From Bolinopsis microptera (lineage: Eukaryota; Ctenophora; Tentaculata; Lobata; Bolinopsidae), in assembly GCF_026151205.1 (NCBI RefSeq), contig NC_087079.1:11028635-11088634 (forward strand): DNA of 60,000 bases. Direction: 5' to 3'. Position 1 is the stretch's first letter. Every line of letters starts with the position of its first letter. The notes beneath the pieces were generated by a model. That model did not search any database and had not been told where the DNA came from. It was given only the letters and a program-made list of their open reading frames with translations. A program made the position numbers and the translations under genes. Positions 24,017 to 30,000 of the stretch are shown here, in pieces.

Positions 24017-27000
24017 CTGAAACATTGAGTATGATGAAAATCTGATATTTTCAAACTGTGTCGATCATTACAAAAGTGCCGCAAGAGTCATCTTCTAAAC
24101 CTGCCAAAGATATAATAACCAACAATTAATTTGCCCCCTAATTTCTATCTAATAGTGCGATTAAAAGACAGCAGCCACAAAAATAAATATTTTAGTAAAG
24201 TTAAAAGTAATAACTTACACTAGGCACCCATTCACCTCCCTCGGCTGCTCTAGCCTTGCCCTCATTCCGCTGCCTCTCCTCGTTGGCATGTTTAGCCGCT
24301 GTAGCCTTGTCGATATCATTGTTGCGTAGCGATAACGTGACGTCACGCCACAATCGGCGTGATTCGTTTTCTCTCTGTTCGCAAACCGGTTTTACAATCT
24401 TGGGCACAACTGACAGTACCTCCGTGTCGATTATTTCCACACTTTTCTGGGAAATGGAGATGTTAATTCGTCTGGTGTTATGCGGCGTGTATCATGTGAT
24501 GATAAGACAGAGCTCGAAAAAAACCATCGCTATCCCTGTAACATATTGTGTAGTTCATATTTGACATATTTGGAGAGATCGAGATGAGTTGATCACATAC
24601 AGAGAATTCTGTAACTAATTTTCTTGTAAGTTCTCCGTTATAATACGGGCTATTAATATAATGTCACGTGGTATTTAACCCTGACCACTCCCTCTGCGAT
24701 TCGTGTGGCGTATAATACTAAACTTTGAAAACAGATTTACAAATAATTAGGACTGCTCAGTACTTACCACCGATTCGTCAGTAAATTTAATTTTGCCGTT
24801 CCATTCACCATCCATCTTATACAGACATTTCCCCGTCATGTTATCCTTGATATCTCCAGTAACTCTGTGCATTTTACCCCCATACATAGGTTTAGTGTGA
24901 AAGACGAGAGTGGACGTGTAGTCAGTCTGTGGGCACGTGACCTGCACTTTCCCCCCCATCTCCGACCAGGGCACCGTTAATATCGACCTGCCATATGTGC
25001 TGGGGAGAGTGAAGTGGTATTTCTCTCCGTGTTCCTGGACATGAATAGTGCCCACTCCCACCATATCCACACCAACACTGATGCCCAGAAATTTAGATTT
25101 GGTCCAGACTGCGTAGTTAGCGCATATCTTCTTATCAGGACACTCCGCATAAAAAGCAGAAACTGAGGAGATAAGGCGTAAAGGTACTGTTAATCCTGGA
25201 TAAAAAACTAGCTTGAAGGGGGAAAAGAAAAACACACAAAATGTATTTAGAAATGAGACTAACCAGGAGGATGATGGGAGACCTGCTCAGCTAGGAATGT
25301 AACTTTACCCTTCTGACCGGGAGCAATATGTCTGTCACTAGCGGTACTGGGCGAGTCTACATCCCATTTGCAGTGGAACACTTCCCCTGAAAATATGAGT
25401 GTGTTAAAGGGGGGGGTGTCATGTCCGTCTATGTCCGCCTATGTCCTGTCCTTTTTGGATTCTATGAGACAACGGACGTGTTTTTTGGGACATTGGCGGA
25501 CACGGACGGACATTGGCGGACTCGGACGGACATTGGCGGACTCGGACGGACATTGGCGGACTCGGACGGACATTGGCGGACCCGGACGGACATTGACGGA
25601 CTTGGATGGACATTGATGGACATTAGCGGACATTGGTGGACATTAGCGGACAAACATTTTGAGGACTGAAGAGTACTGAAGAGTACTGAAGAGTACTGAA
25701 GAGTACTGAGGAGGATGGCTGAGGAGGATGACTGAGGAGGATGACTGAGAGGGAGAAGAAGGATCAGGAAGACCCAGGAAGAGGAGGAGGAGGAGGACCC
25801 AGAAGGAGGACCTAGGAGGAGGAGGAGGAGAACTGAGGAGGATGACTCAGGAGGAGGAGGACTCAGGAGGAGGACTGAGGAGGACTGAGAAGGAGGAGGA
25901 CTGAGGAGGATGGCTGAGGAGGATGGCTGAGGAGGATGACTGAGAGGGAGGAGGAGGAGGAAGAGGAGGAAGAAGACTGAGGAGGAGGAGGAGAAGGACT
26001 GAGGAGGAGAAGGAGGACCCAGGAGGAGGAGGACCCAGGAGGAGGAGGACCCAGGAGGAGGACCCAGGAAAAGGCCCCAGGAGAAGGAGGAGGACTGGGG
26101 AGGAGGAGAACTGTTGAGGACTGATGAGGAGGACTGAGGACGAGGAGGAAGAGTAGGAGGAGGACTGAGGAGGGGCGGAGGAAGAGGACTGGGGAGGACT
26201 GAGGAGGAGGACTGACGATGACTGAGAAGGAGGAGGACTGAGGAGTACTGAGGAGGATGGCTGAGGAGGATGGCTGGGGAGGATGGCTGAGGAGGATTAC
26301 TGAGGAGGATGACTGAGAGGGAGGAGGAGGAGGACTCAGGAGGAGGACTCAGAAGGAAGAGGAGGAGGACTCAGGAGGAGGACTTAGGAGAAATGAGAAG
26401 GAGGACTGAGGAGAACTGAGGAGGAGGAGGAGGACCGAATAGGAGGAGGAGAAGGAGGGGGACTGGGAGAGGACTGGGAAGGAGGAGGACTGATGAGAAG
26501 GATGAGGAGGAGGACCCAGGAGGAGGAGGAGGACCCAGAAGGAGGACCTAGGAGGAGGAGGAGGAGGAAGACCCAGAAGGAGGACCTAGGAGGAGGAGGA
26601 GGAGAACTGAGGAGGATGACTGAGGAGGAGGAGGACTCAGGAGGAGGACTGAGGAGGACTGAGAAGGAGGAGGGCTGAGGAGGATGGCTGAGGAGGATGG
26701 CTGAGGAGGATGACTGAGAGGAAGAGGAGGAAGAGGAGGAAGAGGACCGAGGAGGAGGAGGAGAAGGACTGAGGAGGAGAAGGAGGACCCAGGAGGAGGA
26801 GGACCTAGGAGGAGGAGGACCCAGGAGGAGGACCCAGGAAAAGGCCCCAGGAGGAGGAGGAGGACTGGGGAGGAGGAGAACTGTTGAGGACTGATGAGGA
26901 GGACTGAGGACGAGGAGGAAGAGTAGGAGGAGGAGTGAGGAGGGGAGGAGGAAGAGGACTGGGGAGGATCAGGAAGACCCAGGAGGACCCAGGAGGAGGA

Positions 27001-30000
27001 GGAGGAGGAGGACCCAGGAGGAGGAGGACTGAGAAGGACTGAGGAGGAGGACTGACGATGACTGAGAAGGAGGAGGACTGAGGAGTACTGAGGAGGATGG
27101 CTGAGGAGGATGGCTGGGGAGGATGGCTGAGGAGGATGACTGAGGAGGATGACTGAGAGGGAGGAGGAGGAGGACTCAGGAGGAGGACTCAGAAGGAAAA
27201 GGAGGACTCAGGAGGAGGACTCAGGAGGAGGACTTAGGAGAAATGAGAAGGAGGACTGAGGAGAACTGAGGAGGAGGAGGAGGACTGAATAGGAGGAGGA
27301 GAAGGAGGGGGACTGGGAGAGGACTGGGGAGGAGGAGGACTGATGAGAAGGATGAGGTGGAGGACCCAGGAGGAGGAGGACTGAGGACCGAGGAGGAAGA
27401 GGAGGAGGAGGACCCAGGAGGAGGAGGACTGAGGAGGACTGAGGAGGATGGCTGAGGAGGATGACTGAGAGGGAAGAGGAGGAGGAGGAGGAGGAGGACT
27501 GAGGAGGACTGAGAAGGAGGAGGAGGAGGAGGAGGACTGAATAGGAGGAGGAGGGGGACTGGGGGAGGACTGAGGAGGAGGATGGAGGACTGAGGAGAAG
27601 GATGAGGAGGAGGACTCAGGAGGAGGAGGAGGACTGGGGAGGAGGAGGACTGTTGAGGACTGATGAGGAGGACTGAGGACGAGGAGGAGGAGTAGGAGGA
27701 GGACTGAGGAGGGGAGGAGGAAGAGGACTGAGGAAGATCAGGAAGACCCAGGGGGAGGAGGAGGAAGAGTAGGAGGAGGAAGCATCTAAATGTTATTTCC
27801 ATTTTTGTCCGTTTTTGTCCATTTTTGTCCGTTTATGTCCGCTCTATTTTTTGTCCGTTTTGAAAATATAGGGTACCGAACGGACAAAAATCATGATCCC
27901 CCTATAACAGCAAAAATTGAACATTTTATTTAGCAATTTAGGTGTCCATTAATGTCCGTCTATGTCCGCCTATGTCCGCCAATGTCCGCCTATGTCCGTC
28001 TATGTCCGCCTATGTCCTGTCCTTTTTGGATTCTATGAGACAAGCGGACATAGACGGACGTGACACCCCCCCCGTTAAATTTAGTTAAAATTATAGGATG
28101 TAAGAATTTGAGGAGTGGGTGGCTGTGTAGAATTTAAAGATTTTACCAGCCGCAAATATGATGAACTGTATATACAGGACTAACCTATGATAGGGTTGTA
28201 AGGTTTTTTAGCTAAGGAGCCCTTTCTGCCAGCGTGGAATGAAGTTAGTAACCACTTGGTTGCTCTCAGGATACGCTCCTCAGGTGACTGACCTAAGAAT
28301 ACAGGGAGTTGACATTACAAATATATTGCACGTTACTTGAATATTATATCACAGTAACATCAAAGAAGAATTTCCAATTTCTAATTTAACCTGATCAGAA
28401 TTGAGCCACATTCTCACAATAAACCTACCATCAGAGATGCTCATGAATATATCAGGGTGAGAGAAACAGTTAGCAAACAATTCCAATAAACTCTTCCTCT
28501 CCAGTATGAAGGTAGGGAGCACAACTTTAGTTAGATCCATACCAAGCTTCAGTTGACCTGGGGAGGCGATGCGTAAAATCAATTGAAATTTAATGGGTCA
28601 TTTAAAGTCTTGATGGGGTGAAGTATAAAGTTGTAGGGTGAACACTAGAAACGTGTAAATTCTTACCAAGAAGCGACATGATAACAGACTTGTGTTCCCC
28701 AATATCTGTGTCCCCCTCATCTTCATCCTCATACGCGTCATCGTATGCAGCGCCTTGCTCTGAAAACAAGTTATTTATTGTATTGATGTAGTCCAAATAT
28801 CTGAACGTTTAGAGAACTGGTGAGGTCAATGTCCCATTAGTTATAGCGAATCAAACTCTATCAAAATACCTAAGATAATAGATATGTATCAACATAACCG
28901 AATCAATAGTGTTTCACTTACAATCATCTAATCATTTAATTAATTAATCAAATATTCACTTACCAGGTGTGATGACCGCCTTCTCCCAGTTCAGAGTAAC
29001 ATTACTGCAGGAGATCACTGACCCGCTCCTGTGAACACAACTAAGTTAGTGTTCAAGTCTTGATAAAGCAATAAACATTGGTTAACTGTGAACAGTACTT
29101 GAATTATTTAGATAAAAGACTGGTAATTTGCATTCAAGTTGTTCGATTCACAAATCCAAATCATCAAGTAATTACAGCAAAACCACGGATGTTTCCTTTC
29201 CCCAAACTCCGCAGTAAATCTGGGTCTTACTGTAGTCTGTACCATTGAAGACACAATTCACTATTACTAACCTGGTTAAGGACGGTTTAGAGGTATCACT
29301 AGTTGGTTCCTCAGACCCTACAGAATCAGGAGCTCGGCCAGTGCCGTGCATGTTCATGTTATCCCCTAGTCCATCGTCTTGAGGTGGAATTTTCCTGAAA
29401 CGACATGACATTAAATCTCAGAAGTGCTGTATGTTCGCAATTAGTTTGTTTCATCCACTGTCATTTATCATATTCTGTCAACTGTAGGAACTTGAGTCTT
29501 GGGACAGGAATCATCAAGGTCTTTTAAGGTAAATCAATAAATCAAAACATCTTTGCCCTCCCCCCCCCCCCCGTCTCTCACGCTCGCTCAGTACTTGCCT
29601 ATCAGTATTGTCATCCTCCACATCTTCTGAAAATTTGAAATGGTCATTTAAATCATACATATTATGTAGATCGTATAATGAATTCTAAATTTTAGTCTTA
29701 GATGTTACCTTCTAGGACGCATATTGCAAACGGTTTTATTCCAAAATGTAAGAAAATGAGATCGAGTCACGTAAAGATACAAGTAAAACATACCACGAAT
29801 TTAGTAACTTCAAGCATAACGAAAATTACAATAACTTAAAATAAGTAGTATAATGACTTTAAATAAACTTAAATAAACTAAAACAAGCTGCAAGCTGCTT
29901 GCACTTAACATAAGCCTAAATATGTGCAGTATTTTATTATAATAACCAATCTAAGGACAATAAGTTACACTGGGAGACAGTTAAGTGGGGTAAACCATTA

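Follow-up and report, generated by a model that had tools for sequence, protein, structure and literature searches.

G-run-ended inverted-repeat elements with a satellite-like core form a probable non-autonomous DNA transposon family in Bolinopsis microptera

We analysed a 60,000-nt stretch of the genome of the ctenophore Bolinopsis microptera (contig NC_087079.1, positions 11,028,635 to 11,088,634; hereafter the window), in which an element at 25409-28073 lies within an intron of an oxysterol-binding-protein gene. This element is probably a non-autonomous DNA transposon with terminal inverted repeats (TIRs), belonging to a family of about 380 copies. The original prediction of a G-run-ended element with inverted ends at this place proved real and beyond chance: the edges are G8 on the left and C8 on the right, the ends form a 42-nt inverted repeat with 88% complementarity, and the 6-bp target duplication that had been claimed was found as GTTAAA on both outer edges. 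The end motif GGGGGTGTCAYGTC occurs three times in the window, as compared with 0.00 expected from 100 shuffles. Eight runs of at least eight G or C are present in the window, six of these at the ends of three elements, and the six outside 25409-28073 compare with a mean of 0.2 and a largest value of 3 in 50 Markov sequences. Inside the element ends lie minisatellites of the GGACA/TGTCC motif, mostly at 10-bp spacing, and the core between them is 2.1 kb long with 83% A+G. The long frames within this copy are translations of repeats; Rfam at gathering thresholds over 24000-37500 and a tRNA scan of the whole window gave no match.

A search of the 264.65-Mb genome (232 contigs) with the end pattern GGGGGTGTCAYGTCC returned 389 forward and 367 reverse matches, 756 in all, and the reversed control pattern returned none on either strand, which bears out the predicted family of non-autonomous G-run-ended elements and shows it to be genome-wide. 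Half of the end matches gives a family size of roughly 380 elements, an estimate that leaves out copies whose altered ends escape the exact pattern and gives half weight to those with a single end. Among the first 100 ends listed, 88 could be paired by eye (plus, then minus) into 44 elements of 1.2-6.0 kb with a median of 2.6 kb, leaving 12 unpaired. The detailed sample consisted of 21 copies, namely the window copy and 20 copies fetched from the listed pairs, including the longest. The inverted end motifs were paired in 20/20 fetched copies, which had been selected for having both, and all 21 two-ended copies, three of them printed in full, had a C+T content of 67-78% on one strand along the entire element. 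Because of this uniform composition, the C+T-rich satellite core is intrinsic to the family, and the earlier suggestion that one particular copy had carried a whole satellite into the intron was not upheld as a copy-specific event. At the CAC end, 10 bp was the commonest GGACA spacing in 20 of the 21 copies, the remaining one (L020) being degraded. Tandem duplication of a roughly 1-kb block accounts for part of the variation in copy length; in L010, the CAC-side segment is present five times in such blocks. An AT-rich stretch beside the CAT end is kept in a minority, with 50 variant junctions and 29 copies of a longer relic.

The mean pairwise divergence of the 170-bp unique segment was 1.4% (21 segments, with 16 of the 21 copies represented), a mean lowered by the five segments that come from L010. 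Since the segment differs by only about 1.4% between copies, the low divergence is taken as a probable sign of recent activity or spread, and the family appears young enough to look for empty alleles and a working source. No transposase was seen in the 21 core-bearing copies, as judged by their composition. The general features of a non-autonomous TIR DNA transposon were thus found together: inverted repeats, a 6-bp duplication and copies without a transposase. Through its elements of 1.2-6 kb, the family has brought a C+T-rich satellite to hundreds of places in the genome.

The target duplication of the family is 6 bp at NNTANN. In 16 of the 21 copies, the runs were immediately flanked on both sides by the same 6-mer (exactly in 15 and with one mismatch in L015), and 15 of these 16 duplications, scored on the right-hand copy, had a central TA, an excess with a binomial P of about 1e-15 at the window TA frequency of 0.085. 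The runs themselves varied from 5 to 36 letters over 50 ends, with a mode of 8 at both end types, and the left and right run lengths within one copy showed no significant correlation (Spearman 0.29, P 0.21).

Two further families with G-run ends were recognized. The prediction that a nested element at 35086 has such ends with a different inner sequence was correct; the element was placed at 35084-35778 with a 6-bp duplication, and its end type gave 109 + 137 matches genome-wide. In seven fetched copies of this second family with both exact end motifs, the seventh being L064/L065, the 6-bp repeats read AATCAT, ATAATT, AAAACA, AATGGT and AAATGT; one copy reads as 8 bp (ATTATTTT), and CTCATA is shifted by one letter. 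A central TA was present in 0/6 of the 6-mers (the five fetched copies and the window copy). The third family, GGGGATGCAACGACC, had 11 + 9 matches, and its three readable two-ended copies showed 8-bp repeats, TGCACTCC in one, and AATATACC and GAACAAAG, each with three extra letters beside the run, in the others. Subterminal 10-bp repeats are common to all three families (the third by eye), and the inner ends are mutually unrelated. The runs were 8 to 34 long with a mode of 9 in the second family (24 ends), and 4 to 19 with modes of 6 and 7 in the third (10 ends). Run lengths differed among the three families (P 0.005, 0.002 and 0.0001), a comparison biased by the search patterns, which demanded at least 5, 6 and 4 Gs, respectively. 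Because run lengths are family-specific, we infer that the G-run is templated and drifting, not freshly added. A short frame of about 100 amino acids, KNSSKPCQRRTIRKGDSL..., recurs in the third family (L065, L076-L085), and its L065 copy had no Pfam match at E 1. The nested element lies within a 1.6-kb stretch (35037-36615) that is itself bounded by a 29-bp inverted repeat (90%).

Two micro-elements were also found. The one at 976, consisting of a G-run, TGTCATGT and a C-run between target repeats, belongs to the family as had been proposed. The 8-bp duplication ascribed to it (CCACTTGG, 968-975 / 1007-1014) is obtained only if two run letters are counted, whereas ACTTGG, at 6 bp, fits the length typical of the family. 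The second, L033, appeared among seven variant ends, and its target repeat is readable as CATAAG, with a central TA, by taking one run letter from each side. In both, the sequence runs from the CAT end as far as the CC of GTCC, a structure that fits a putative deletion into the far C-run. The C-run of L033 appears to harbour, at 1500-2815, an element of 1.3 kb whose inverted ends, CACAGTGGTCC, are 11 bp long. A fourth G-run family based on these ends was considered and rejected, as there were just two genome matches, and an element inserted in the C-run of the micro-element is the better description.

We propose that a transposase or integrase encoded elsewhere would bind the helically phased subterminal repeats and join the 3' ends of the C-runs to the target across a 6-bp stagger with TA at its centre, and that repair would then yield the duplication. 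The G-run, of about eight bases, would be part of the element and drift by slippage, the core would grow and shrink through tandem duplication, and the micro-elements may have arisen by deletions that start at the CC of TGTCATGTCC and reach into the distant C-run. Several observations weigh against the interpretation as a TIR transposon family with this mode of integration. The duplication of L018 (TCTGTA), the left copy of that of L015 and the ACTTGG target of the 976 micro-element have no central TA. A clean adjacent 6-mer was absent in 5 of the 21 copies: L014 and L020 show no target repeat, and the repeats of L024, L025 and L027 can be read only after a shift or with run letters included. 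To these are added the bias in the comparison of run lengths, the fact that G-run ends by themselves do not define one enzyme, because the end style is shared by families with unequal duplication lengths, and the finding of no autonomous copy, transposase or excision footprint among the copies examined.

The search for an enzyme source followed several routes. In the eight copies printed with the AT-rich relic on the CAT side, the relic adjoined the core directly, with no coding interior. One of the 12 unpaired ends falls within L014; five others were read, and the core is present in L001, L093 and L094 and absent in L095 and L096. The longest stop-to-stop frame of L096 over about 1.1 kb was below 100 amino acids. 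L095 has one stop-to-stop frame of 182 amino acids on the minus strand, for which no Pfam match was obtained at E 1. A segment of L095 has counterparts in L030 (80%) and L096 (70%), and gave 40 scored matches from 59 candidates in the genome, L096 not being among the 40. A 27-base motif of L096 occurs at 21 places at up to three mismatches, three of them within listed end pairs, and L018, the one read, has the core. For tracing a longer lineage, the core-less L095 and L096 are the most promising copies. The same ends were not found in viral_contigs (two patterns) or genome_contigs (one pattern), viral and prokaryotic collections that are little informative here.

MuDR elements have a MULE transposase and an 8-9 bp duplication. 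It is quite conceivable, and compatible with the interpretation preferred above, that the G-run-ended elements belong to described superfamilies whose terminal G tract was expanded by slippage, for example hAT6 where the duplication is 6 bp and MuDR where it is 8 bp. An originally short G tract at the terminus would, once expanded, look alike, but no hAT-type terminus, as hAT termini are generally known, follows the run. hAT6 elements with 6-bp duplications are described in PMC12730594, and 20 superfamilies with a DDD/E transposase are given in PMC9587614. By the descriptions consulted, a 6-bp duplication fits IS3EU, GingerRoot, Polinton and hAT6. IS3EU shares the 6-bp duplication with our family, but its TA..TA termini, TAYGG..CCRTA in fungal families (PMC10045372, PMC12730594), are not those of the G-run TGTCAYGTCC ends. 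GingerRoot, with 6-bp duplications and mostly TA..TA, occasionally TG..CA ends, is compatible in the duplication and in the inner TG..CA, whereas its description contains no G-run in the part available (PMC10045372). Among elements with repetitive interiors, the oyster non-autonomous Helentrons Cg_HINE are likewise dispersed with a satellite-like central array, but only our family has terminal inverted repeats and a 6-bp duplication (PMC7492417), which separates it from Helitrons and Helentrons, defined by no target duplication. The Tetris/foldback elements of Drosophila are non-autonomous and have tandem repeats inside inverted ends, serving as a source of satellite arrays; their repeat unit is about 220 bp, as compared with 10 bp in our family, and the portion of the description consulted mentions no G-run (PMC4079207).

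The claim that the ends lie outside described superfamilies can accordingly be kept only in part. No G-run terminus appears in the open-literature descriptions of PMC12730594, PMC10045372 and PMC9587614, nor in those of PMC7492417 and PMC4079207, as far as these were accessible and with Repbase outside the scope, but a decision on superfamily would require a transposase. We therefore file the elements as a new non-autonomous TIR family without assigning it to a superfamily; the termini speak against IS3EU and the one Polinton group seen in this genome, and GingerRoot and hAT6 are possible. A bolder hypothesis, which we regard as unlikely, is that homopolymer-G-ended elements constitute a superfamily of their own, so far undescribed, whose joining end is the run itself; an integrating enzyme would make a 6-bp stagger at NNTANN and act on floating 3' C-tracts backed by 10-bp phased binding sites, and families with unrelated inner ends would share this end style. 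L095, L096 and an L096-like locus at C5:10170873 would then be remnants of an autonomous lineage. If the G-run does serve as the joining end, the terminus would be of an unusual kind for a transposon, a homopolymer whose length floats and which is nevertheless used with precision.

Polintons of the same genome offer another conceivable source. DNA_pol_B_2 gave 20 matches in the genome, 13 of them with open frames of more than 850 amino acids, and Polintons here likewise make 6-bp duplications, which raises the doubtful possibility that the family is a satellite of a Polinton-like protein-primed element, whose integrase would make the 6-bp duplications and whose sliding-back initiation on the 3' C-run would let the G-runs drift. 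The varying length of the terminal runs and a 10-bp minisatellite at two pol B loci would suit this. However, the ends seen, those of a single Polinton group, begin with AGTAGTATG and have no G-run; the 6-bp duplications of this group, GACGTC, TACTTG and CTTGTT at three elements (by eye), contain a central TA in 0/3 cases, and at the one locus followed the minisatellite is internal, flanked by the polymerase and a further open frame. On this group and this locus, a Polinton as the source was not supported. The elements of this group, L042/L043 (C7:6690202-6705877), L040/L047 and L044/L045 (C9), have inverted ends of more than 4 kb, each holding nearly all of an open pol B frame, and the two C7 inverted ends (L042/L043) are 99.9% identical over 4.2 kb. 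At L037, L039 and L086 (C3:11682242, C9:2278322-2284800), a long ATACATAATG minisatellite of 10-bp period comes after pol B; at the C9 locus the next feature is an open frame that looks C2H2-like by eye (MSNFCELCDKTF...). Still more improbable is that the G-runs were added without template, by C-tailing of 3' ends before or during integration, to an element proper of TGTCA...TGACA resembling integrase-type TG..CA elements: the inner TG..CA ends of the first family, the uncorrelated left and right runs and the occasional TG..CA ends and 6-bp duplications of GingerRoot (PMC10045372) agree with it, but the sharp mode at 8 and the family-specific lengths suit templated runs, and the second and third families have no TG start after the run.

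The element stands in a gene predicted earlier as OSBPL11-type, in its intron 18; what Pfam bears out is an Oxysterol_BP-type gene with exons on the minus strand. Oxysterol_BP matches were obtained in three of the five minus-strand stretches scanned, neighbouring exons of the host gene, one scoring 85.9 bits, above the Pfam cut-off, and two scoring 26.2 and 27.3, just below the cut-off of 28.9. The element occupies 95% of the intron, whose acceptor lies 22 bp from the element end, and the sense strand is the pyrimidine-rich strand of the element. Once the element and one target copy are removed, the intron measures 127 bp; the visible effect of the element here is the enlargement of this intron to 2.8 kb. 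The coordinates are collected in Table 1.

Table 1. Positions in the window of the element at 25409-28073, its parts, its host intron and two other G-run-ended elements.
Feature	Position	Strand	Remarks
Micro-element G10-TGTCATGT-C17	974..1008	+	Target repeat ACTTGG 970-975 / 1009-1014
Host intron of Oxysterol_BP gene	25387..28184	-	2798 bp; splice sites and exon joint read by eye
Non-autonomous element	25409-28073		G8 left edge, C8 right edge
Target-site duplication GTTAAA, 6 bp, left copy	25403..25408	.	
Left inverted arm ('CAT' end) including TGTCATGTCC	25404..25445	+	88% complementary to 28037-28078; includes part of target repeat
Terminal G8 run	25409..25416	+	
'CAT'-side subterminal minisatellite	25488..25653	+	GGACA motif at intervals of 10 or 20 bp; right limit approximate
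Polypurine core, 83% A+G	25654..27782	+	Polypyrimidine in the sense orientation of the gene; limits by eye
AT-rich unique segment, about 170 bp, with TTTTTGTCCG repeats	27783..27951	+	Basis for comparing copies; limits by eye
'CAC'-side subterminal minisatellite ATGTCCGCCT, period 10	27952..28017	+	
Right inverted arm ('CAC' end) including GGACGTGACA	28037..28078	+	
Terminal C8 run	28066..28073	+	
Target-site duplication GTTAAA, 6 bp, right copy	28074..28079	.	
Second G-run family copy, inner end CCAACCATATTAAAG, 10-bp subterminal repeats	35084..35778	+	GGTTTT 35078-35083 / 35779-35784

Other repeats were observed in the window. An array of GGCCGAGGAGGGTCATT units in both orientations, with periods of 67 and 208 bp, extends over 14034-14505, and a nearly pure TC repeat of 655 bases over 32850-33504. 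At 37301-37341, a C12 run, after one A, stands between two direct 14-bp copies of AAGGTATTAGGTAC.

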